Part shown: piece by piece, positions 9,774-20,010 of the stretch
Layout: every line of letters starts with the position of its first letter
Position numbering within the stretch: position 1 is the first letter of the stretch
Source: Hyphomicrobiaceae bacterium
GTDB taxonomy: Bacteria; Pseudomonadota; Alphaproteobacteria; Rhizobiales; Hyphomicrobiaceae
Assembly (NCBI GenBank): GCA_022844275.1
Contig: JALHMB010000006.1
Location: forward strand, 1-64,000
Direction of reading: 5' to 3'
Length of the DNA: 64,000 nt
Position numbers and translations under genes: made by a program
The notes under the pieces: generated by a model
Database searches by the model: none
Seen by the model: only the letters and a program-made list of their open reading frames with translations
What the model was told of the DNA's origin: nothing

Positions 9774-11948
9774 ATGAGCGGAATGTTCGATCGCAAGTGC
9801 TGGCTGCAGACCGTCCTGTGGATGTCGACGTTACTCGCTCTCGCATGGGGCGCGCCTGCCGCGATAGCCCTCGAGAGCGCAGCTACCACCAGTCCCCGCG
9901 TTACTGCGACGCTGATCAGCGACGCGGCCACCGTGGCCCCCGGTCAGACCTTCCGTGTCGGACTGCGCCAGAAGCTCGCTCCCAAGTGGCATACATATTG
10001 GAAGAACTCCGGCGATGCGGGTGCGCCGCCCGAGATCCGGCTGGGCCTGCCCGCTGGCGCGACGGTCAGCGGCATCATCTGGCCGGGACCTGATCGCATT
10101 GCGGCTGCCGGTCCGGTCATGAGCTACGGCTACGAGACCGAGATCGTCTTTCCCATCAACGTGACCGTGCCCCGCGATGCCACGCCGGGACAGAATATGG
10201 CCATTACCGCGGACGCCGAATGGATCGTCTGCGAGAGAGAGTGCATTCCCGAACAGGGCAGCTTCCAACTCGACATTCCGATTGCCGAAACCACGGCACC
10301 GGCCAGCGATGACGTGAAGGCAGCGTTCGCCATTGCCGATGCGCGCAAACCCATGACGGGGCCGTGGTCGTCACGCCTTGTCAGCGAAGGCGATGCGCTC
10401 GCACTGACCGTGGTCGGCGCAGACCTCACGCAGGCCGCGGTGAAAGCTGCGTACTTCTACCCGGCTTCGTGGGGCGTGACGGATCACGCGGCCCCGCAGC
10501 AGCTATCCCTTACCGACGGCACGCTCACACTCGCGCTGGCCAAAGGTCAGACGTTCAACCCCGCGGCCAAGGCCGATGGGCTGCTCGCCGTGACCGATGG
10601 CGGTGGCGTGACGCGCTGGTTTGAGATCACCCCCACGATCGGTGGAGCCCCCGCCGGCGCGGCGCCGACCGCCTCACTCATCGAGAACCTGCCGCTCTGG
10701 CAGACCGCACTCTTCGCATTCCTGGGCGGCCTGATCCTGAACCTCATGCCGTGCGTCTTTCCGGTGCTCGCCATCAAGGCTACGGCCATCGCGAAGCTCT
10801 CGGGGGGCGAACTGCGTGAGGTGCGGCTCGCGAGCGCGTTCTATACGCTCGGCGTGCTCGTCGCCTTCACGGCCCTCGCCGCCGCACTGCTTGCCATGCG
10901 CGCGGGCGGCACGGCAGTCGGGTGGGGCTTCCAGTTCCAGTCGCCGCTCTTCGTCGCCGGTATGAGCTGGCTGCTGCTCGCCATCGGCCTCAATCTCTCT
11001 GGCGTCTTCGAGATCGGCCTTGGCGTCGGCGGCACCGGGCAGTCTCTCGCACAGAAGTCCGGCCATGCCGGCAGCTTCTTCACCGGCCTGCTCGCCGTCG
11101 TCGTGGCGACGCCCTGCACGGCGCCTTTCATGGGCGCCGCGATCGGCACCGCGCTGACGGCACCCGTCTATATCTGCCTCCTCATTTTTCTTGCCATGGG
11201 GCTCGGCCTTGCCGCGCCCTATGCGCTGCTTGGCATCTTCCCAAGTCTCGCCCGCGCCCTGCCGCGACCGGGCCTGTGGATGGTGCGTCTCCGCCAGGCC
11301 ATGGCATTCCCGATGTATGCCTCGGCGGCGTGGCTCGTCTGGGTGCTCTCGCAGCAGGCCGGAGACTTCGGCGTGCTCATCGCACTCTCGGGCGCACTGC
11401 TCGTGGCGCTCGCCGCATGGATGTACGGCATTGCCCAGCATGACACCGGACGCGGTCTCCTCTCGCGCGGCTTTGCGGCTGCGGCGATCGTCGGCACGCT
11501 CGGCCTGCTCATGCAGCTCGATGGCGCGACGACGCCGGGCGCTGCAGCGCGCACGGAGGCGAGCCCAGGTTCGGCCAACTATGAGCCTTTCAGCAATGCG
11601 CGCCTCGCGGCCTTGCGCAAGGAAGGCAAGCCCGTGTTCGTGAACATGACGGCGGCGTGGTGCATCACATGCCTCGTCAACGAGCGCACGACGCTTTCGA
11701 CGGACACCATTCAGCAGGCTTTCCGCGAGCGCGGCATCACATATCTCAAGGGCGACTGGACGAACCGCGATCCCGAGATCGGCGCCTACCTGCGCAGCTT
11801 CAATCGCGACGGCCTGCCCTTCTATGCCTACTATCCCGCCGGGGGGCGCGACCCGGTGGTTCTTCCGCCCGTGCTTACCGAAGCCATCGTGGTCGGCGAA
11901 CTCGAACGCGCCAATACATCAGCTTCAGCATCCCCATCATCCAACTAA
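9774..11948 (+). CDS. ScsB/DsbD-like thiol:disulfide interchange protein
   Basis: A 724-residue membrane electron-transfer protein that would carry reducing power from cytosolic thioredoxin to the periplasm. The order is: signal peptide (about 1-32); a DsbD-type immunoglobulin-like N-terminal domain with Cys153 and Cys157 (WIVCERECIPE); a CcdA-like block of eight or so membrane helices with the two conserved Pro-Cys motifs LMPCVFP (Cys327) and ATPCTAPFMG (Cys447); and a C-terminal thioredoxin-like domain with WCITC (Cys630, Cys633). The Cys-containing N-terminal domain and the arrangement fit ScsB better than classical DsbD. It is followed after 16 bp by a Tat-type redoxin gene, its likely partner. 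An alternative start is ATG 9783. Confidence 0.9.
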   Translation: MSGMFDRKCWLQTVLWMSTLLALAWGAPAAIALESAATTSPRVTATLISDAATVAPGQTFRVGLRQKLAPKWHTYWKNSGDAGAPPEIRLGLPAGATVSGIIWPGPDRIAAAGPVMSYGYETEIVFPINVTVPRDATPGQNMAITADAEWIVCERECIPEQGSFQLDIPIAETTAPASDDVKAAFAIADARKPMTGPWSSRLVSEGDALALTVVGADLTQAAVKAAYFYPASWGVTDHAAPQQLSLTDGTLTLALAKGQTFNPAAKADGLLAVTDGGGVTRWFEITPTIGGAPAGAAPTASLIENLPLWQTALFAFLGGLILNLMPCVFPVLAIKATAIAKLSGGELREVRLASAFYTLGVLVAFTALAAALLAMRAGGTAVGWGFQFQSPLFVAGMSWLLLAIGLNLSGVFEIGLGVGGTGQSLAQKSGHAGSFFTGLLAVVVATPCTAPFMGAAIGTALTAPVYICLLIFLAMGLGLAAPYALLGIFPSLARALPRPGLWMVRLRQAMAFPMYASAAWLVWVLSQQAGDFGVLIALSGALLVALAAWMYGIAQHDTGRGLLSRGFAAAAIVGTLGLLMQLDGATTPGAAARTEASPGSANYEPFSNARLAALRKEGKPVFVNMTAAWCITCLVNERTTLSTDTIQQAFRERGITYLKGDWTNRDPEIGAYLRSFNRDGLPFYAYYPAGGRDPVVLPPVLTEAIVVGELERANTSASASPSSN

Positions 11949-11964
11949 TGACCAGGAGACCCGA

Positions 11965-12648
11965 ATGACTGACATTCGATCCAAAGTGCTTGCCGATTTG
12001 GCCTTCGACCGCCGCACACTGATGCTTGGCACGACAGCCGGCCTGACCGCGGTGGCAGCCGGCGGTCTCACGATGCTCTCGAGCCGCCCGGCATTTGCCT
12101 CGCCGCAGATCAACAAGCCCGCGCCGGACTTCTCGGCCATCGACAGCAACGGCAAGACGGTGAGCCTCGCGTCGCTCCGCGGCAAGATCGTCGCGCTCGA
12201 GTGGACGAACCATGACTGCCCGTACGTGCGCAAGCACTACAACACCGGCAACATGCAGTCGCTTCAGAAGCAGGCTGCCGATGCAGGCATCGTGTGGCTG
12301 AGCGTCATTTCCTCGCCGCCGGGCGAGCAGGGCAATGTCACACCGGAGAAGGCCAACGAGCTCACCCAGACGCGGAAAGCCGCTCCGGCTGCCGTTCTTC
12401 TCGATCCGAAGGGCCAGGTCGGCCGCGCCTATGACGCGCGCACGACCCCGCAGATGTTCCTCATCAATGCCGAGGGCACGCTGGTCTATATGGGCGGTAT
12501 CGACTCCATTCCCTCGACCCGCGCCGATGATATCGAGAAGGCGACGCCTTACTTCAAGGACGCGATCGTTGCCGTAACCAAGGGCGAGCCCGTGCAGAAC
12601 GCCGTGACGCGTCCTTATGGCTGCACGGTCAAGTACACGACGTCCTAA
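11965..12648 (+). CDS. Exported thioredoxin-fold (redoxin/AhpC-TSA) protein
   Basis: A 227-residue redoxin. The N-terminus reads FDRRTLMLGTTAG with an RR pair before a hydrophobic stretch and an AFA cleavage site, so a Tat signal is likely. The fold core follows: INKPAPDFSAIDSNGKTVSLASLRGK, then NHDCPYVRKHY with a single active-site Cys in place of the CxxC of TlpA-type proteins, and a TTPQMFLIN cis-Pro strand. A second Cys sits near the C-terminus (RPYGCTVKY). An AGGAG Shine-Dalgarno precedes ATG 11965, and the 16-bp gap to the ScsB-like gene indicates one operon. It is plausibly the periplasmic partner of that protein. Peroxidase activity is possible but not proven by sequence. Confidence 0.85.
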   Translation: MTDIRSKVLADLAFDRRTLMLGTTAGLTAVAAGGLTMLSSRPAFASPQINKPAPDFSAIDSNGKTVSLASLRGKIVALEWTNHDCPYVRKHYNTGNMQSLQKQAADAGIVWLSVISSPPGEQGNVTPEKANELTQTRKAAPAAVLLDPKGQVGRAYDARTTPQMFLINAEGTLVYMGGIDSIPSTRADDIEKATPYFKDAIVAVTKGEPVQNAVTRPYGCTVKYTTS

Positions 12649-12735
12649 CGCGCCAGATACGCGCCAGACATGGGGGAGCGGGAACCAATCTCCGCTCCCT
12701 ATACTTCAGAGTGCAAGCACTCGAAGGGCGTCACC

Positions 12736-13794
12736 ATGAGCGCACCGCATCTGAGCCGCCGCCAATTAGCCGCGCTGATTGCCGGAGCTGCGCTTCCCGG
12801 TAGTATCTCCATGCCGACCCATGCTCAGACCTCAGAGAGCAGCACGGGCAGCGCGATGCGCCTCGCGGCAAGCGTGCTACTCACAGGTGGTCGCCCGAAA
12901 GCACGCGATCAGCTCTCATTCCCCTTCGCCGCCCCCGAGCGTCATCGCTGGACGTATGTGCCGGGACGGCGCAACGGTTTTTCGCTGGATGACATGGAGC
13001 CTGACGAGCGCAAGCTCGCCATGAACCTGCTCGCCGTGTCCCTGAGCTCTTCGGGACTTGAGAAGGCCACGGGCGTTATGAAGCTCGCCGCTGTGCTGAA
13101 AGAGACGCGCGGCTTTGGCCGCGGCCCCGGCGCCTACTATTTTGCGGTTTACGGAGAGCCCGTTCCGGATGGCCTGTGGGGCTGGCGCGTCGAAGGTCAT
13201 CATCTCTCGCTCAACTATACGGTATTTCGAGATCGCGTGATCTCTGCGACCCCGCACTGCGTCTGCGCCGATCCCATGGAAGTCGCGACGGGGCTGTACG
13301 CCGGTCTCGCGCCGATCCATCGCGAGGACTATATCGGCCGCGATCTCGTGCGCAATCTCGATGCCGGGCAGCTCGCGCGGACCCGTCGCGCCGGCGACGT
13401 ACCGAACGACGTGCGCGCCGGCCCGCGCCGTGCCGAGGTCGCAACGGAAGCCGGCGGCATCGCTTTTGCTGCGCTCAGCGACGAGACGCAGCGTCACCTG
13501 ATGCTCGGCATTGCCGAGACCTACATTTCAAACCTGCCGCACGATCTGGCGAAGGCGCAGATGGGTCGTCTCGAGGGCGCAGCGCGCGACACCCTGCACT
13601 TCGAGTGGTCTGGCGGCTTCGAGACGAGCGACCTGCACTACTATCGCCTGCATGGCCCGAGGCTCTCGATCGAGTACGCGACGCGCGAGAGTGCGCGCCA
13701 CGTGCACACGCTTTGGCGGGAGCCGGGGAATGACTTCGGTCGCGCCGCACTGGCGGCTGCCGGTCAGGAGACGCTGCCGCCCGAAAGCGCCTGA
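12736..13794 (+). CDS. DUF3500 family protein with Tat signal
   Basis: A 352-residue secreted protein of the DUF3500 family. The twin-arginine start LSRRQLAALIAGAAL ends near THAQT, so Tat export is expected. The body shows the family stretches DQLSFPFAAPERHRWTYVPGRRNGF and GWRVEGHHLSLNYT, and near the end FEWSGGFETSDLHYYRLHGPRLSIEY, rich in conserved His and Trp residues. ATG 12736 was chosen because it opens directly on the signal peptide. It lies 87 bp after the redoxin gene on the same strand, so all three products are export-linked. The family's activity is not known to me. Confidence 0.83.
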   Translation: MSAPHLSRRQLAALIAGAALPGSISMPTHAQTSESSTGSAMRLAASVLLTGGRPKARDQLSFPFAAPERHRWTYVPGRRNGFSLDDMEPDERKLAMNLLAVSLSSSGLEKATGVMKLAAVLKETRGFGRGPGAYYFAVYGEPVPDGLWGWRVEGHHLSLNYTVFRDRVISATPHCVCADPMEVATGLYAGLAPIHREDYIGRDLVRNLDAGQLARTRRAGDVPNDVRAGPRRAEVATEAGGIAFAALSDETQRHLMLGIAETYISNLPHDLAKAQMGRLEGAARDTLHFEWSGGFETSDLHYYRLHGPRLSIEYATRESARHVHTLWREPGNDFGRAALAAAGQETLPPESA

Positions 13795-13805
13795 GCGCGG
13801 ACAGC

Positions 13806-14585
13806 TCAGCTCCGATTGTCGCGTGAGGTGCCGATCTCGATCAAATCGCGCGCAGCCATCTCGGCTTCCACGAGAATGAGATAACGGCGCAGGTCGCGGA
13901 TGTCGTCCAGCAGGGGCTCCGCGCGGGTGTCGGCGACAATGTGCTGGAAAAGATTGTGCTTCTGTGCACCAGGCATCTCCGACGAAACACGCTGCTCGAT
14001 GCGATCGAATTTGCGTGCGAGCATCATGAACGCGCCGATCCCGCCGCGCCGCTTCCAACTGCTGCCGTACGCGCGCTCCTTCTCCTCGATGTTCGCGACA
14101 TCGCCATCAGCGAGCGGCTGAAGCTGATCCAGATAACCACGCCCGCTGTCCTCGACATTACCAGCTTCGCGCGCGGCGATCTCGGCCTCGGCGAGCATGA
14201 GGTAGCGGCGCAAGTCGCGCACATCGTCGATGAAACCGTCGCTCTTCGTATCGGCCGCGATGTGCTCGAAGATGTCGTAGGGCGAGGCTCCATCACCCGT
14301 CGTCGCGAGGCGCTTCTCGACGCGGTCCCACTTGCGCGCAAGCATGTTGAACGTGTCGACGCCGCCGCGCCGCTTCCAGCTATCTCCGTAGGACTTCTCC
14401 GCATTGCGTAAGCCACGCACATCACTGTCGGCAACCGCGCGGAGATGGTCGAGATAGGAGGGACCGCTGTCGGCGCCGCTCTCGCCGGCATCATCGAGCA
14501 GCGCCGCGAGCCGCTTCAGCGTCGCCGTATCGCTGGCGGCGAGCCGCTCGAGCAGTGTCTTGCGCTGCGCATCTTCTCCCGTCAC
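13806..14585 (-). CDS. Tandem-repeat protein, nucleotide-modification-associated domain (DUF1599/Nmad1)-like
   Basis: A 259-residue protein made of two copies of one all-helical domain (residues about 40-142 and 147-249). Each copy has YGxSWKRRGG (66-75 and 173-182), then MLARKxDR[VI]E, a gap, and a final acidic helix DD[VI]RDLRRYL (120-129 and 227-236). The pattern Y-G-x-x-W ... K-x-D-R ... D-x-x-D-L-x-x-Y resembles phage proteins annotated as nucleotide modification associated domain 1 (DUF1599). That assignment is from memory of the family and is moderate. Translation starts at GTG 14585, 10 bp after the TS-like stop and behind AAGAGG. It is the third gene of the operon with the TS-like and HMUDK-like genes. 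Function of the domain is unknown; it may act on modified dNTPs. Confidence 0.62.
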   Translation of the reverse strand: MTGEDAQRKTLLERLAASDTATLKRLAALLDDAGESGADSGPSYLDHLRAVADSDVRGLRNAEKSYGDSWKRRGGVDTFNMLARKWDRVEKRLATTGDGASPYDIFEHIAADTKSDGFIDDVRDLRRYLMLAEAEIAAREAGNVEDSGRGYLDQLQPLADGDVANIEEKERAYGSSWKRRGGIGAFMMLARKFDRIEQRVSSEMPGAQKHNLFQHIVADTRAEPLLDDIRDLRRYLILVEAEMAARDLIEIGTSRDNRS

Positions 14586-14595
14586 GATTGGCCTC

Positions 14596-15648
14596 TTACT
14601 CCGCGGCGACGCTCGCGCGCGGCTGCCAGCGGCGCTCGAACCACTCGAGCGCGGCGCGCCGCCAGTCGGTCGCGGCACAGCGCTCGACCCAGGCCAGGGC
14701 CGTCGCACGATCCTTGCGCTTGTAGGCGAACCAGCCGTTGTAGATCGGCGTCGCAACACGCAGGAAATAGGGATTGCGCGCTTCTCCCGACGCAACCGCG
14801 GCATCCCACTGGGCGAGGCTCATCTCGTCCGGCGGATTGTCGAGCCAATGGAAGAGATCCGCATCGAAGTTTTCGGGATCGCCGACCAGGGGATAGACGG
14901 CTACCTCGTCGAGCGCATAGGGATCGCCCTCAAAGCGGTCGGCAATACCGCTGATCTTGGACCAGGTGTCCTCGTAGGCGTGATAGCTGTCGCTCATCTG
15001 GCGGTAGACACCGGCCTCGACGCCAATCCGCGCGGCCATGTACTCGAGCAGGATCGAGAAGTGCACGGCATTAGCGCCGTAGCAGCCCCAGATGATGTCG
15101 TTCGAGCGGTTCGAGACGGTCATGTTCAGGCGGCCGTTGCGCACCTTGAACATGGCTTGGGTGTTGCAGGCGAGATCCTTGCTCGCGACGCCGAGATCGG
15201 CTTCCGCATCCCAGATCTGGAGGACGGCGCGGCGGCTGTCCGGATCATTGCGCAGGAGATCGACAATAGTCGTGAGCTGATCGCGGAACGGACGGCCGTG
15301 CGCCTTGGAGAGATCGAACTGCTGGCGCCAGCGATAGCCGTAGGCGGCATTGAAGACGATGCCGTCATCCGAGTAGGTCGCCATGCGCTGGTTGAAGCGC
15401 GCGAGCCAAGCGACGTCGTTGCGGCCGGCGAGCATCCACAGCGCTTCCAGCAGATGGAAGAAGGGATTCGCATCGCGCACGCCGTCGAAAAGCACGCGCT
15501 CCAGCGGACGCTCGTAAACCGTGCAGACGGGCTCGGGATATTCGATGGTGCTACCGGCGCGGCTTGCCTGCACGAGCCCACCTTGCTTCATGAGCTCGGC
15601 ACCCTTGACGACAGCGTCATTTACGTTGCGAGCTTGGACGACCTTCAT
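14596..15648 (-). CDS. Divergent thymidylate synthase / dUMP-hydroxymethylase-like protein
   Basis: A 350-residue protein of the thymidylate synthase superfamily. Recognisable landmarks are LEALWMLAGRNDVAWL (68-82), AYGYRWR (102-108), the phosphate-binding pair SRRAVLQIWD (138-147), the nucleophile Cys161 in ACNTQAMF instead of the usual PPCH, and RSNDIIWG (181-188). The region after about residue 230 does not resemble the usual C-terminal folate-closing segment of ThyA and is longer. The divergence and the operon suggest it makes a modified pyrimidine nucleotide such as 5-hydroxymethyl-dUMP rather than dTMP. Its ATG overlaps the stop of the upstream gene by 4 bp. It could still be a plain thymidylate synthase; this window alone does not decide it. 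Confidence 0.72.
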   Translation of the reverse strand: MKVVQARNVNDAVVKGAELMKQGGLVQASRAGSTIEYPEPVCTVYERPLERVLFDGVRDANPFFHLLEALWMLAGRNDVAWLARFNQRMATYSDDGIVFNAAYGYRWRQQFDLSKAHGRPFRDQLTTIVDLLRNDPDSRRAVLQIWDAEADLGVASKDLACNTQAMFKVRNGRLNMTVSNRSNDIIWGCYGANAVHFSILLEYMAARIGVEAGVYRQMSDSYHAYEDTWSKISGIADRFEGDPYALDEVAVYPLVGDPENFDADLFHWLDNPPDEMSLAQWDAAVASGEARNPYFLRVATPIYNGWFAYKRKDRATALAWVERCAATDWRRAALEWFERRWQPRASVAAE

Positions 15649-16511
15649 GCGGCTACACCCTCATATTTGGCCCTGGGGCGGCCCTCTCCGTTGGCGACGC
15701 GGAGATACTTGTCCGTCTCGCAGAGCGAATGCTCGACCTCGCGGAGCTCCAGAGGCGGCACGAAATCCGGCAGGCTCGTCTTCGACAGCTCGAGCAGCTC
15801 GCGCATTTCCTCGAGCGCCTGCGTCTGCGTCAGTGATTTCTTATATGGGCGCCCGTGCAGGCGGTGCAATCCGCGGATCGCACCCGGCCCTGCCACGGCC
15901 CAGGTGTTGATGTCGGGCGCATTGCGCAGATAGCGCGTGTGACGGAGGTCCGTCACGACCTCGTAGGCCATGAAATCACCCCAGCCGCGGAACTGGCGCA
16001 GCCACGTGTGCACTTCCTGCATGGTGGGCTGGCGGCCGTTCGCGAACATGGCGTCGAACTCGTGGCGTGCGTCCCAGAGCGCGCCGACGACGACATGCGC
16101 CGTATATTCCGGCTTCGCCATGCCGGCGAACTCGCCCGAGGGGGCGCTGATCATGTAGGCGCCCGTGTACACTTTTTCGCCACGCGCCTTGCGCGCTTCG
16201 AGCGCGGCGCGGATCGCCTTGGCGTCGTAAGTACGCTCGGGAAACCCGACTTCCTCGAGTGTCTCCGGCCAGTTCACCTGACGCGCGAGACACATGGCAA
16301 TCCAGAGCTGCGGATTGTCGGCATAGGGCTCCCGCCACTTCTCGCGCACCCACACGGTGACCTTGTCGAGCTCGCGGAAGACATTACAGAAGCTGTACGT
16401 CTGCAGGATCTCGTCATTCGTCCAGGGTGCAGGTTCGCCTGCGGCCTTCTTGAGATAAATGCGATGGCGTTCGGTGATCCAATCCCAGAAGGGCTGTGCG
16501 TTCAGAGCCAC
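15645..16511 (-). CDS. 5-hmdU DNA kinase helical domain / alpha-glutamyl-putrescinyl-thymine pyrophosphorylase-like protein
   Basis: A 288-residue protein that matches, from memory, the helical HMUDK/aGPT-PPlase group described in phage thymine-hypermodification systems. The N-terminal signature is visible: FWDWITERHRIYLKK (8-22), WTNDEILQTYSF (31-42), NVFRELDKVT (44-53). A second block has FRGWGDFMAYEVVTDLRHTRYL, and the C-terminus carries EVEHSLCETDKY with GEGRPR. No P-loop is seen, so only the helical partner domain is present. The start is GTG 16511 with a weak Shine-Dalgarno; no better upstream start was found. It is the first gene of a three-gene operon and overlaps the TS-like gene by 4 bp. 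Role inferred: DNA-level processing of 5-hydroxymethyluracil. Confidence 0.68.
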   Translation of the reverse strand: MALNAQPFWDWITERHRIYLKKAAGEPAPWTNDEILQTYSFCNVFRELDKVTVWVREKWREPYADNPQLWIAMCLARQVNWPETLEEVGFPERTYDAKAIRAALEARKARGEKVYTGAYMISAPSGEFAGMAKPEYTAHVVVGALWDARHEFDAMFANGRQPTMQEVHTWLRQFRGWGDFMAYEVVTDLRHTRYLRNAPDINTWAVAGPGAIRGLHRLHGRPYKKSLTQTQALEEMRELLELSKTSLPDFVPPLELREVEHSLCETDKYLRVANGEGRPRAKYEGVAA

Positions 16512-16708
16512 GATGCACTCGCTGTTGAGAGTTGTGGGCGATCACCGCCGACCCCGAACGCAACCATTGGTCAGCGGCAAACAGACTCGCTTGCGTGACC
16601 GTAGGCGGTGCTCAGGGCATTGGCCACATGCCTCGGGAGCTTATGCACCTTTAGCATCGAGCACTTACTGAACGGCCGCACGATAGGCGCCTGATATTGT
16701 GGGCCAAG

Positions 16709-17353
16709 TTACGCATTTGGCGTGTCCGCAGCTTCCTCGGCGAGCTCGCGTACACGCCGCAGGTCGACCAGCGCATTGTCCTTCAACCTCGGGCTGCGCA
16801 GGATGGCGGCCGGATGGTAGGTCGCGATCGTCGGTATGCCCTTGTACTCCAGAACCTGCCCACGCAGCTTCGCCATGGGCTCCTTGCCCGGCAGCAACCA
16901 GCGCGTTGCATGAAGGCCAAGGGCACAGAGAACGCGGGGCTTCAGCACATCGAGCTGCGCGCGGAGGAAGGGTGCGCATGTCACAACTTCCTCGGGGCGC
17001 GGATCTCGGTTTTGCGGCGGCCGGCATTTCACGACATTGCAGATATACAGGTCACTGCGCGCAATTCCCGTCTCGGCGAGCAGGCGATCGAGGAGCTGCC
17101 CCGAGCGGCCGACGAACGGCAGGCCCTGAACGTCCTCGTTCGCTCCGGGCGCTTCGCCGATGAGGACAATACCCGAGCGCGTGCTACCCGAGCCGAACAC
17201 CACTTTCGTGCGCGTCTCGGCCAGAACGCAGGCCGTGCACTGTGCGGCCTGCGCCGCATATGGCGACAAGGCAATTTCGACCGCAGCCACGACATCGTCC
17301 GAACGGAACGCGGCGAATGGGGGCGGCGGTCGCTCTTGCACGTGGCCTGGCAC
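16709..17353 (-). CDS. Family 4 uracil-DNA glycosylase (Fe-S type)
   Basis: A 214-residue UDG that removes uracil from DNA. The four iron-sulfur cysteines are visible at C39, C42 (CTAC), C110 and C126, the spacing of family 4 (UDGa). The catalytic motif A is GEAPG (66-70), and motif B HPAAILRSP (180-188) is the DNA-intercalation loop. The KRRIH insertion of UdgX is absent, so it is an ordinary glycosylase. The start is GTG 17353, 11 bp after recA, so recA and this gene are probably cotranscribed. The next gene downstream on the strand is the hmdU-kinase-like gene after 197 bp. Confidence 0.9.
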   Translation of the reverse strand: MPGHVQERPPPPFAAFRSDDVVAAVEIALSPYAAQAAQCTACVLAETRTKVVFGSGSTRSGIVLIGEAPGANEDVQGLPFVGRSGQLLDRLLAETGIARSDLYICNVVKCRPPQNRDPRPEEVVTCAPFLRAQLDVLKPRVLCALGLHATRWLLPGKEPMAKLRGQVLEYKGIPTIATYHPAAILRSPRLKDNALVDLRRVRELAEEAADTPNA

Positions 17354-17364
17354 GTGTCTCGAGC

Positions 17365-18531
17365 CTAGCGCCGACCCGCGCGCGCACCCTTGCGCGCCGT
17401 CGTATCCTCCGGTTCCGGATCCGGCAGCACACCATCGGCATCCGGCACCTCGGTCAGTCCATCCGGATCGGGATCGTCGCTCGGCTCAGCCTGGAGCATC
17501 TTGTCGACGATCAGCCCTGCGTTCTGACGGATCGCAGCCTCGATCTCGGCAGCGATCTTGGGATTGTCCTTGAGGAACGTCTTGGCGTTCTCACGGCCCT
17601 GGCCGATCCGAGTGCCTTTGAAGGAGATCCAGGCGCCCGACTTCTCAACGATCCCGGCCTTGACGCCGAGGTCGACTAGCTCGCCGGTCTTCGAGATGCC
17701 CTCGCCGTACATGATGTCGAATTCGACCTGCTTGAAGGGCGGCGCGACCTTGTTCTTGACGACCTTGACGCGCGTCTGGTTGCCGACCGGCTCGTCGCGT
17801 TCCTTGATCTGGCCAATACGGCGGATGTCGAGGCGGACGGACGAGTAGAACTTGAGCGCATTGCCACCCGTCGTCGTCTCGGGATTGCCGAACATGATGC
17901 CGATCTTCATGCGGATCTGATTGATGAAGATCACCGTGCAGTGTGACTTGGAGATGGTGCCGGTGAGCTTGCGCAGCGCCTGGCTCATAAGACGCGCTTG
18001 CAAGCCGGGGAGGCTATCCCCCATCTCGCCTTCGAGCTCCGCCTTGGGCGTCAACGCCGCAACCGAGTCGACCACCAGCACGTCGACGGCGCCCGAGCGG
18101 ACCAGCGTGTCGACGATCTCCAGAGCCTGCTCGCCCGAGTCGGGCTGCGAAATAAGCAGATCCTCGACCTTGACGCCGAGCTTCCTCGCATAGACCGGGT
18201 CGACGGCGTGCTCGGCATCGACGAAAGCGCAGATGCCACCCTTCTTCTGGGCTTCCGCCACGCACTGAAGGGCGAGCGTGGTCTTGCCCGAGCTTTCCGG
18301 GCCGAAGATCTCGACCACGCGCCCGCGCGGCAAGCCACCGATCCCGAGCGCGATATCGAGCCCGAGCGATCCGGTCGAGACCGCCTCGACGTCAATGGTC
18401 CGATCATTGGCACCGAGCCGCATGATCGAGCCTTTGCCGAACTGTTTCTCGATGTGCGCAAGCGCTGCATCCAGCGCCTTGTGCTTGTCCATATCGTCCC
18501 CCTCGACGACGCGTAGATGCGCAGCAGCCAT
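17365..18531 (-). CDS. recA: Recombinase RecA
   Basis: A 388-residue RecA, the ATP-dependent strand-exchange protein that also triggers LexA self-cleavage. Walker A is GPESSGKT (77-84). Walker B is the [12 protein letters not shown] strand. The [28 protein letters not shown] stretch covers loop L2. The C-terminal tail is acidic then basic ([16 protein letters not shown]). The start at ATG 18531 fits the alphaproteobacterial N-terminus ([19 protein letters not shown]...); the frame is open for 47 codons upstream, where the SOS box sits, so those codons are not coding. The family-4 UDG follows after 11 bp. Confidence 0.99.
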
Positions 18532-18897
18532 GATGCGAGTTTCCTTATTCCATGAGTTGCAGATTCTAGCAATTAACCGTTCATGTACCATTTTTGTTCT
18601 CATCGCACAAGAGGTGCTCAATATCCTGAAAGGAAAAGCGGAACAGTAGAGTGTTCTAGGAATGTTTTGCACCCGCGGTTTCGTTCACCGTAGTGCAGTT
18701 CCGTGCGCTTCGATTCGTCACCAAAGCAACGTGGCCGCAAAACTGACCGAGGGGTTAAGCGCACTTGGAAGATTTGAGACAAATGCGCCGGCTCGCCTTT
18801 GCGGTGATTTCGCCTCTGCAAGGTAAACATGGAGGCCTGAGAACAGTGACTGGGACTCGCGGTTGCACCAGCGGCCGAGCCCGAGAGGTTGTGAGCC
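18532..18897. other. recA upstream region
   Basis: A 366-bp space between recA and the divergent DUF5330 gene. The first 70 bp hold the SOS-box-like site and the recA promoter. The rest is GC-rich and has no recognised gene. Small frames here lack Shine-Dalgarno sequences and family signatures. Confidence 0.5.
18585..18599 (-). promoter_or_regulatory. SOS (LexA) box-like site upstream of recA
   Basis: GTAC-CATTTTT-GTTC matches the alphaproteobacterial LexA site GTTC-N7-GTTC at 7 of 8 defined bases, with exact 7-base spacing. It ends 54 bp before the recA ATG, the usual place for LexA control of recA. The downstream UDG gene would share this control. Confidence 0.68.
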
Positions 18898-19218
18898 ATG
18901 TTTTTGATCCGGATGGCGTTCTGGGTGGGGCTAATCGTGTTTCTGCTCCCCTCGGACAAGGAGCGCCAAGCCCAACTCTACAAGACCGCCACGGAAACCG
19001 TGCACCGTGCCATGACTTTCTGCGACCGCAATGCCGCGCTTTGCGAGCAGGGCGCGAAGCACTGGGCGGTCTTCCGTACGAAGCTGGAATTCGGCACCAA
19101 GCTCGTGTTCGACATGGCGAGCGAGCGCCTGCTCGGCGTTCAGCCCACAGTTCATAAGCCAAGCGAAGATGCCGCGCCTGGGCAGACTCCGCGCGGCAAT
19201 GGACGCGTCGGCGCCTGA
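18898..19218 (+). CDS. DUF5330 family small protein
   Basis: A 106-residue protein with one N-terminal hydrophobic segment (FLIRMAFWVGLIVFLLP) followed by a soluble helical part with two Cys residues (FCDRNAALCEQG, about residues 42-49). The MFLIRMAFWxG opening matches the alphaproteobacterial DUF5330 family. The segment may be an uncleaved anchor or a signal peptide. It is a single gene, convergent with the lipoprotein gene 21 bp downstream. Function unknown. Confidence 0.72.
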   Translation: MFLIRMAFWVGLIVFLLPSDKERQAQLYKTATETVHRAMTFCDRNAALCEQGAKHWAVFRTKLEFGTKLVFDMASERLLGVQPTVHKPSEDAAPGQTPRGNGRVGA

Positions 19219-19239
19219 GCTTGGCGGTAGGCGCCGACC

Positions 19240-19743
19240 TTAGCGCGGCGCCAGCGGGTCGAAGATCGCTTCCCGATCCATGGGCTTTTGTGAGCCCGGC
19301 TCGCCCCACCAGCCATAGGCGTCCGCCGGCTTCCTTGGCGGCGCCCGGAAATCGCCCGCGAGCTGCTTGTTCAGATCGAGGCTGACCTGGCGCGTACGAT
19401 CGGGAGAGCAATACTCCTCCGGATTGGAGATTTGCTTGCTGACGGTCGTGCGCGTGAAGTCATAGGACTGGGTGAGCTTCGCCATCTGCTCCGGCGACGC
19501 TCCGGCTGATGCCTCGTAGGCCAGATAGGAGTCACGCAATTTGTTGGGATTGAAGTTGTAACCGCATTTGCTCGCGCGGACGGAAACCGCAGCAGCATTG
19601 AGTGCGCGCTCGGTGGGCTCGTCGACTGGCGGCTTTTCGGCAGGCGTGCCGAGCAAAGATGCCGTCGTCAGTCCGCCGCCGCCCGAGCAGGCGGAAAGTG
19701 CTCCGGCCAAAAGCACTGCGCCGAACACGCGAATTCGGATCAT
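19240..19743 (-). CDS. Putative lipoprotein
   Basis: A 167-residue predicted lipoprotein. The signal peptide MIRIRVFGAVLLAGALSAC ends in a good lipobox (LSAC, Cys19). The mature part is soluble, with Cys residues in SKCGYNFNP and EEYCSPDR that could pair, and the segment KLRDSYLAYEASAGASPEQMAKL. The start at ATG 19743 has a strong GGGGGAAG Shine-Dalgarno. The 20-codon extension upstream lacks one. I do not recognise a named family. It is convergent with DUF5330 and separate from the ABC gene. Confidence 0.8.
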   Translation of the reverse strand: MIRIRVFGAVLLAGALSACSGGGGLTTASLLGTPAEKPPVDEPTERALNAAAVSVRASKCGYNFNPNKLRDSYLAYEASAGASPEQMAKLTQSYDFTRTTVSKQISNPEEYCSPDRTRQVSLDLNKQLAGDFRAPPRKPADAYGWWGEPGSQKPMDREAIFDPLAPR

Positions 19744-20010
19744 GGCGTCTTCCCCCACGGAATCGTCCCGTGCCTGTTTAGCATGGGCCGCCGATGCAGC
19801 CAAATCGTGGCATGCCTTAAGTGCCGCGGGGTGCTGCGAAGAGGTGCTGTCGCCTCATTCGGTAGCGCAATGCCCGCAGCGGCCACAGCGACTGGGCAGA
19901 GCTTGGGGAAGCGAATTGCTCGGATGAATGCTAGCGCCTCCTTCGAGGCGCAAAGTCAAAAGGCGGGAGGGTTCGGGAGGGTGTACCTCCCGATTGGGGC
20001 CGGGGGCGGT

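Follow-up and report, generated by a model that had tools for sequence, protein, structure and literature searches.

A Phage-Type Base-Modification Cassette as the Probable Successor of ThyA in Hyphomicrobiaceae Genomes

Introduction

How does a bacterium supply its DNA with a pyrimidine that pairs with adenine when no dedicated enzyme for making or salvaging thymidylate can be found in its genome? To our knowledge, every cell that does not depend on salvage makes its thymidylate via ThyA or ThyX. The question is raised by three minus-strand genes, encoding P0001 (“HEL”), P0002, and P0003, at positions 13806–16511 of a 64,000-nucleotide stretch of DNA from a Hyphomicrobiaceae bacterium (positions 1 to 64,000 of contig JALHMB010000006.1, assembly GCA_022844275.1; hereafter the window). 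A preliminary description of this three-gene cassette had likened it to the genes with which phages modify thymine, and had proposed a cellular system that makes a modified pyrimidine nucleotide or DNA base, possibly for self-marking or defense.

The answer proposed here is that the cassette very probably displaced ThyA in its carriers. P0002 is the sole gene of the thymidylate synthase (TS) family found in its genome, thyA has been lost from its old site, neither a ThyX over the cut-off nor a thymidine kinase is found, and the cassette recurs across lineages. What the cassette makes is a separate matter. Judged from its sequence, the chances are evenly balanced that this phage-descended cassette, in displacing TS, became the only recognizable de novo source of an adenine-pairing nucleotide, produces 5-hydroxymethyl-dUMP (hmdUMP), and leads to 5-hydroxymethyluracil (hmU or 5hmU) in DNA.

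Apparent Loss of ThyA in Cassette Carriers

In the genome that contains the window (6.08 Mb, 98.93% complete), P0002 is the sole match to the TS profile PF00303, and no match to the ThyX profile PF02511 is found. A check for a separate thyA or thyX, proposed in the preliminary description, has thus returned neither. The same description had regarded a TS-like gene serving as the only thymidylate synthase of the genome as speaking against a modified base when DNA and nucleotide pools contain only dT; P0002 is indeed the only TS-family gene found, which sharpens the idea rather than overturning it.

This genome and 59 relatives were searched with profiles for PF18723 (HMUDK_hel, the family of P0001), PF00303, and PF02511. 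The four genomes with the cassette (G000, G002, G003, and G004; one genus, 95–99% complete) contain no canonical ThyA and no ThyX, compared with two of the 56 non-cassette relatives (G005, 78% complete, and G029, 96%), an association with a Fisher p of 3e-5 across the 60 genomes in which all four carriers belong to one clade. Both exceptions are also without HMUDK_hel and may reflect either a draft gap or a different replacement of TS. Among the remaining relatives, G020 shows only a 31-position fragment and G008 has ThyX in place of ThyA.

The fifth member of the genus, G001 (87% complete), is without HMUDK_hel and has a canonical thyA, which follows the gene order NYN-GNAT-cobW-SDR-sspB-CPBP-CPBP. 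This block is conserved up to the first CPBP gene in G000, G002, and G003 (from NYN) and in G004 (from a partial cobW). Beyond it, no thyA is found on the next 9.7 to 10 kb in the first three genomes, nor on the 1.75 kb in G004, where a gene placed as in G001 would end 1.7 kb beyond the block. Because the conserved block continues without thyA, the gene is native in G001 and appears lost from the carriers, rather than hidden by an assembly gap. A search for thymidine kinase in 13 genomes, of which six carry the cassette and seven do not, found it in none.

The cassette recurs in separate lineages and in different surroundings. A search for related loci returned five, three of which (L017, L018, and L021) belong to G003, G004, and G002, respectively. 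The other two, L019 in the metagenome-assembled genome (MAG) AP_29 and L020 in the Hyphomonadaceae MAG-151, carry all three genes in unchanged order but are non-syntenic with the window; their genomes (G444 and G445) have no PF00303 match besides the cassette gene and no ThyX above the cut-off. In a sample of the class Alphaproteobacteria, the P0001 alignment matches 8 of 385 genomes at 1e-8, among which the genome of the window alone is known to contain the cassette; of the other seven, two have canonical ThyA and five have ThyX. Two HMUDK_hel homologues from this sample, L083 (G183) and L084 (G060), occur in genomes with ThyX; tblastn detects neither a deoxyuridylate hydroxymethylase (DUHMT) nor a kinase next to them, and their role is perhaps a different one.

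P0002 Resembles Deoxyuridylate Hydroxymethylases

P0002 (14596–15648, minus strand, 350 amino acids) is a TS homologue of the deoxyuridylate-hydroxymethylase type. It is comparable to canonical ThyA and ThyX in being the only candidate supplier of an adenine-pairing pyrimidine nucleotide in the genome, and differs from canonical ThyA in its altered active-site residues and in a match to PF00303 that lies above the cut-off yet is partial (75 bits, whereas the full-length ThyA proteins of relatives mostly score over 400). All eight NCBIfam TS models that match P0002 remain under their cut-offs (best 81.7 vs. 174.55). The phage family phrog_5131 matches residues 1–343 (1.1e-113), and the best phage TS/DUHMT proteins are 47–48% identical.

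Residues were compared in an alignment of 27 rows, comprising P0002, five cassette orthologues, phage and plasmid enzymes, T4 gp42, SPO1 gp29, and five ThyA-type proteins (four bacterial and one phage td), to which 67 viral DUHMTs were added, the dereplicated set of 114 complete sequences. The catalytic set of Glu68, Tyr103, Cys161, RSxD, Asn193, and His223-x-Tyr225 is kept in 6/6 cassette enzymes and 67/67 viral DUHMTs, and with the PF00303 match this upholds the earlier view of P0002 as a divergent TS homologue with a catalytic Cys161. Three residues ahead of this cysteine, all six cassette enzymes (Asp158 in P0002), all 67 viral DUHMTs, and SPO1 gp29 have Asp, and all five ThyA-type proteins have Leu. 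In T4 dCMP hydroxymethylase, Asp at this position is described as activating water where TS has Leu, and the D145N variant as inactive (PMC6400193). Asn193 aligns with Asn177 of the Escherichia coli enzyme, and an Asn at this position is reported to fit a uracil substrate (PMC8670742); an enzyme of the dCMP type represented by T4 gp42 is expected to have Asp instead, so P0002 does not conform to that type.

Further hallmarks of ThyA, namely Leu at −3, His at +1, the IWDEW stretch, and the -PxAV tail, are absent from P0002, which has Asp158, Asn162, TYSDDG, and a C-terminus reading SVAAE. Its likeness to SPO1 gp29, whose record is annotated as dUMP hydroxymethylase, extends over KDxxCN, SDDG, NAxYG, NRSND, the uracil-type Asn, and the lack of a ThyA-like C-terminal tail; the SP8 dUMP hydroxymethylase is 42% identical across two thirds of P0002. 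SPO1 differs in being a phage and not a cell, and no HEL or aGPT-PPlase is annotated in the 42 kb of it that were viewed by annotation, not by sequence search. In a tree of the TS family, in which several long branches are placed with little certainty, the cassette enzymes cluster together (99/96), adjacent to those of phages M6, CN1, Sonora, and Pam3 (88/87) and far from ThyA (100/100).

The −3 position was also probed by scoring single-residue variants of a P0002 fragment against TS profile models. Each of the six bacterial TS models listed scores the fragment 1.7–4.2 bits higher with Leu than with Asp. The methanogen model TIGR03283 gives nearly equal scores for Asp, Pro, Ser, and Asn (75.5–75.9) and a lower one for Leu (73.8); Leu is thus not shared by all TS, and Asp does not single out the methanogen family either. 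Together, the displacement of ThyA and the retained hydroxymethylase signature point to hmdUMP as the most likely first product of P0002, from which either hmU in chromosomal DNA or a further step to thymine would follow.

Two plasmid loci contain other TS homologues. On the conjugative plasmid pRlX1 of Rhizobium ruizarguesonis (L051), a homologue with Asp at −3 lies near genes of the NTP pyrophosphohydrolase, uracil-DNA glycosylase, and metallophosphoesterase families, a locus that could represent a mobile relative or a defense set. The Geobacillus plasmid pGeo12a (L059) encodes two divergent homologues together with PqqD-family, NUDIX, AAA, and aminoglycoside-phosphotransferase-family genes, a cluster that looks biosynthetic or of modification type.

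Phage Relatives of the Cassette

The best phage matches of P0001 and P0002 (46–48% identity) are found in Yuavirus and its kin, namely Pseudomonas phages M6 and YuA, Sphaerotilus phage SN1, and Stenotrophomonas phage Sonora. In M6, whose modified base is reported as 5-NedU (PMC6449724), and in SN1, both homologues (46–48% in M6) are located within a thymine-hypermodification cluster that includes a separate P-loop kinase. In Pseudanabaena phage Pam3, homologues of P0001, P0002, and P0003 all belong to one thymine-modification cluster, which bears out the claim that the three genes are of kinds known from phage thymine modification. The Yuavirus and Pam3 clusters differ from the cassette in their accessory genes, as no hmU kinase, aGPT-PPlase2, radical-SAM, PLP, or HD nucleotidase gene was found within the 64-kb window.

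To place the cassette among viral relatives, at least 159 viral loci were assembled from the best 80 matches of the P0001 alignment and the best 80 of the P0003 alignment (79 of them new, with some contigs in both sets). HEL, DUHMT, and Nmad occur together in 77 of the 159 loci listed. Accessory genes were sought by tblastn in flanks of at most 6 kb with one or two queries per gene, so that misses are possible; on this basis, 52 of the 77 triad loci are without kinase, aGPT-PPlase2, radical-SAM, and PLP genes, while HD/YfbR is present in 62 of the 77, including 40 of the 52 accessory-free loci, and PolA in 73. At 52 of 77 loci, the triad without accessory genes appears to be a phage module in itself. 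The HEL, DUHMT, and Nmad genes of loci L184–L195 and others lie mostly near PolA, and these are perhaps phage base-replacement modules. No description of a kinase-less HEL/DUHMT/Nmad module was met among the top results of the open-licence literature surveyed.

A parallel in logic is provided by the phage Z-cluster (purZ, mazZ, and datZ), which is described as replacing adenine by 2-aminoadenine and combines a base-making synthase homologue with a MazG-like pyrophosphatase and a triphosphohydrolase (PMC8342488). The parallel is imperfect, as no such HD gene was found in the window and the pyrophosphatase class of P0003 is a weak fold match only. By analogy it favors interpreting the phage triad as a module for base replacement, and it would explain why an HD gene could be dropped in a cell without dTTP.

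Companion Proteins and Genomic Setting

P0001 (15645–16511, minus strand, 288 amino acids from a GTG start) is assigned to HMUDK_hel / aGPT-PPlase clade 1. Its match to PF18723 (E 6.3e-56, 190 bits against a gathering score of 25) establishes the HMUDK-helical identity suggested earlier. No P-loop kinase domain (PF18748) lies in or beside it and no kinase was found in the window, so the kinase half is missing, as had been stated, and P0001 consists of the helical part alone. The fold is predicted to be HhH-DNA-glycosylase-like, and the best structural row of the predicted model is a phage 5-phosphomethyl-dU glycinyltransferase, at an E not below 0.001. Foldseek returned nothing at E <0.001 for the models of either P0001 or P0003, and a sequence search of the PDB with the P0001 profile gave one chance-like row only (E 0.67).

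P0003 (13806–14585, minus strand, 259 amino acids, GTG at 14585) is a tandem Nmad repeat protein, compared with a single unit in Pam3_54. The preliminary description had called it a tandem DUF1599/Nmad1-like protein; the tandem Nmad repeat stands, whereas DUF1599 (PF07659) is matched by 0/44 alignment members at E ≤0.1. No sound Pfam match was obtained, and a PDB sequence search with the P0003 profile found no relative at E ≤1; the all-alpha NTP pyrophosphatase class is a weak fold match only. P0003 also matches PHROG 22490, labeled “replication protein.” The P0003 sequence alone found no viral relatives, and with the alignment at least 549 viral stretches that encode a relative were recovered. 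The in-frame open reading frame of P0003 extends up to 14804 and overlaps P0002; in L017, L018, and L021, the orthologues start about 10 bp past the TS gene.

As described previously, the three genes are tightly packed, running from 16511 to 13806 with a 4-bp overlap followed by a 10-bp gap. The setting is that of an ordinary chromosome: among the six neighbors scanned at 9774–19803, five have Pfam matches (recA, uracil-DNA-glycosylase superfamily, DUF3500, redoxin, and DsbD), none of them phage-type, and the sixth has no Pfam match. The uracil-DNA-glycosylase superfamily gene (PF03167, 6e-37; 16709–17353, minus strand) lies by recA, directly upstream of the cassette and on the same strand. 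A relative is present at the same place in L017, L018, and L021, and none was matched in L019 and L020.

Thymidylate Kinase of the Carriers

To test which nucleotide passes through thymidylate kinase, the enzyme was sought with PF02223 in 28 genomes and aligned in 27 rows; none was found in G445, whose completeness is not stated. In the motif DRFxDST(R)xYQ, the Arg is present in 22/22 non-carriers and replaced by Phe in 4/4 carriers of the Hyphomicrobium clade (tmk loci L250 in G000, L254 in G002, L258 in G003, and L257 in G004). In G444 (L272), where the neighboring genes are the same as in G000, the motif is degenerate and reads ERFSDAARLSHG. Of 38 invariant columns, 7 are broken in G444, 2 in each of the four carriers, and 0–2 in non-carriers. 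These departures are suggestive of, and would fit, an altered nucleotide in the carriers.

Discussion

If the cassette makes hmdUMP, its working could be as follows. P0002 would join dUMP and methylene-tetrahydrofolate, and the methylene intermediate would be quenched by water activated by Asp158, giving hmdUMP and tetrahydrofolate instead of dTMP and dihydrofolate. Cellular kinases would then phosphorylate hmdUMP for incorporation into DNA. More tentatively, P0003 might be an all-alpha nucleotide pyrophosphatase, MazZ-like, that supplies dUMP or cleans up dUTP/dTTP, and P0001 might flip out hmU in DNA and act on it via its glycosylase-like fold. Chromosomal hmU would replace some or all thymine, and a later conversion to thymine seems less likely. 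That these are free-living lineages without thymidylate, in which hmU stands for all or much of the chromosomal thymine and thymidylate kinase has been adapted or bypassed, is possible and leans somewhat toward the improbable side.

The use of hmU in cellular DNA is possible in principle, since it has been shown in engineered E. coli: in a thyA-minus strain with a SPO1-like pathway, about 75% of T is reported to be replaced by 5hmU (PMC7435384). The strain, from the Schultz group, resembles the carriers in that thyA was removed and a phage-type dUMP hydroxymethylase supplied; it differs in being synthetic and incomplete and in having a mononucleotide kinase in its design, whereas the cassette carriers are natural (PMC7435384). 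5hmU is also described in the DNA of dinoflagellates and Leishmania.

Several observations weigh against hmU in the DNA of the carriers, or against parts of the evidence for displacement. We know of no precedent for a bacterium with hmU throughout its DNA, and none with a hydroxymethylase-displaced ThyA or natural chromosomal 5hmU was met among the top results of the open-licence literature. The other half of the T4 hydroxymethylase signature, described as a Ser or Thr two residues ahead of the Tyr (PMC6400193), is missing from P0002, which has Ala101 ahead of Tyr103. This position is Gly in 64/67 and Ala in 3/67 viral DUHMTs and Ala in SPO1 gp29, so that Ser/Thr seems to be no part of the dUMP type. 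Next to the catalytic Cys, 6/6 cassette enzymes have Ala (Ala160) where 66/67 viral ones have Pro, a substitution that could mark a changed reaction. folA is retained at a conserved place in all five genomes of the genus, as a dTMP-forming TS would need; being kept in carriers and non-carrier alike, it decides nothing, and folate synthesis requires folA anyway.

Other points of this kind concern the genomes. G032, a genome of the same family, has both a different HMUDK_hel protein (370 bits, on the 4.4-kb contig L002) and a canonical thyA, so HMUDK_hel alone is not tied to the loss of ThyA, and the absence of thymidine kinase is usual in the group, since the seven non-carriers lack it too. The two broken columns in the thymidylate kinases of the four carriers fall within the non-carrier range. 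The kinase evidence is of modest weight, since the change to Phe happened once, within a single clade, and Arg at that position is not shared by all other bacterial thymidylate kinases. G444 is not a clean case because it contains a ThyX-like frame below threshold (22.8 bits, E 1.4e-4), and both G444 and G445 are MAGs of unstated completeness, in which absences, above all that of tmk in G445, may be gaps. The divergent ThyX-like open frame lies at 686–1807 of L082 on the minus strand, has 374 codons, remains below the Pfam cut-off, and contains a stretch resembling a ThyX motif.

The strongest alternative accepts that ThyA was displaced and makes the product ordinary dTMP: P0002 would have regained hydride transfer, or P0001 and P0003 would help convert hmdUMP, so that the cassette would be a third route to thymidylate and DNA would contain only T. 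This is to be taken seriously, although clearly short of an even chance. While it shares the displacement evidence, accords with the retained folA and the cassette-specific Ala160, and demands the least change of the rest of the cell, it is difficult to reconcile with the water-activating Asp retained in 6/6 cassette enzymes and with the missing Trp stretch and C-terminal tail of ThyA, and it accounts neither for P0001 and P0003 traveling with P0002 nor for the change in thymidylate kinase.

An improbable variant has DNA built from hmdUTP, with reduction of its hmU to thymine only after polymerization, as reported for phage phiW-14; P0001 would act on hmU in DNA. The predicted glycosylase-like fold of P0001 and its best structural row would suit such a role, and cells infected by phiW-14 are described as being without dTTP while some DNA hmU is replaced by thymine (PMC5977210). 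However, phiW-14 is reported to proceed via pyrophosphorylated hmU (PMC5977210); no hmU kinase was found in the window, which was the range searched, and no reductase was identified.

It is very improbable that a thymidylate source was simply missed, be it a third TS, a gene in an assembly gap, or thymidine uptake. Gaps do occur, as the two non-cassette relatives without both enzymes indicate, and G444 has its ThyX-like gene below the cut-off, but the four genus genomes agree at 95–99% completeness, their contigs run past the old thyA site (in G004 by 1.75 kb only), and there is no thymidine kinase for salvage.

The optional self-marking or defense role once proposed, as an operon unrelated to thymidylate supply, is the least probable of all. 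In its favor, the domains reported as newly validated in defense units include those of TS and of a 5-hydroxymethyluracil kinase, and published figures of systems, either validated or predicted, show NMAD and aGPT-PPlase domains (PMC13092281). Against it, the three proteins have no PADLOC match at E ≤0.1 (2023 library), and the neighbors examined (recA, uracil-DNA glycosylase, DUF3500, redoxin/DsbD) are not defense genes. An optional system would also leave unexplained the absence of canonical ThyA and of over-cut-off ThyX in every tested carrier; in the genome of the window, P0002 is the sole TS-family gene found and the former site of thyA no longer contains it, whereas nearly all other sampled members of the family have thyA. 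Of the cellular modified-pyrimidine system put forward earlier, what stands is that a chromosome contains thymine-modification genes of phage type, including a TS homologue that resembles DUHMTs.

With neither ThyA nor ThyX nor a thymidine kinase found, no candidate remains but the phage base-modification cassette, and its carriers would have either a third route to thymidylate or 5-hydroxymethyluracil in their own DNA. If true, HMUDK_hel and Nmad proteins would gain their first role inside a cell in the absence of the kinase, and the carriers would be a natural counterpart of E. coli engineered for 5hmU. Among the sequenced carriers, Hyphomicrobium sp. CS1BSMeth3 may be in culture. Either outcome, if true, would change the accepted view of the cellular DNA alphabet.

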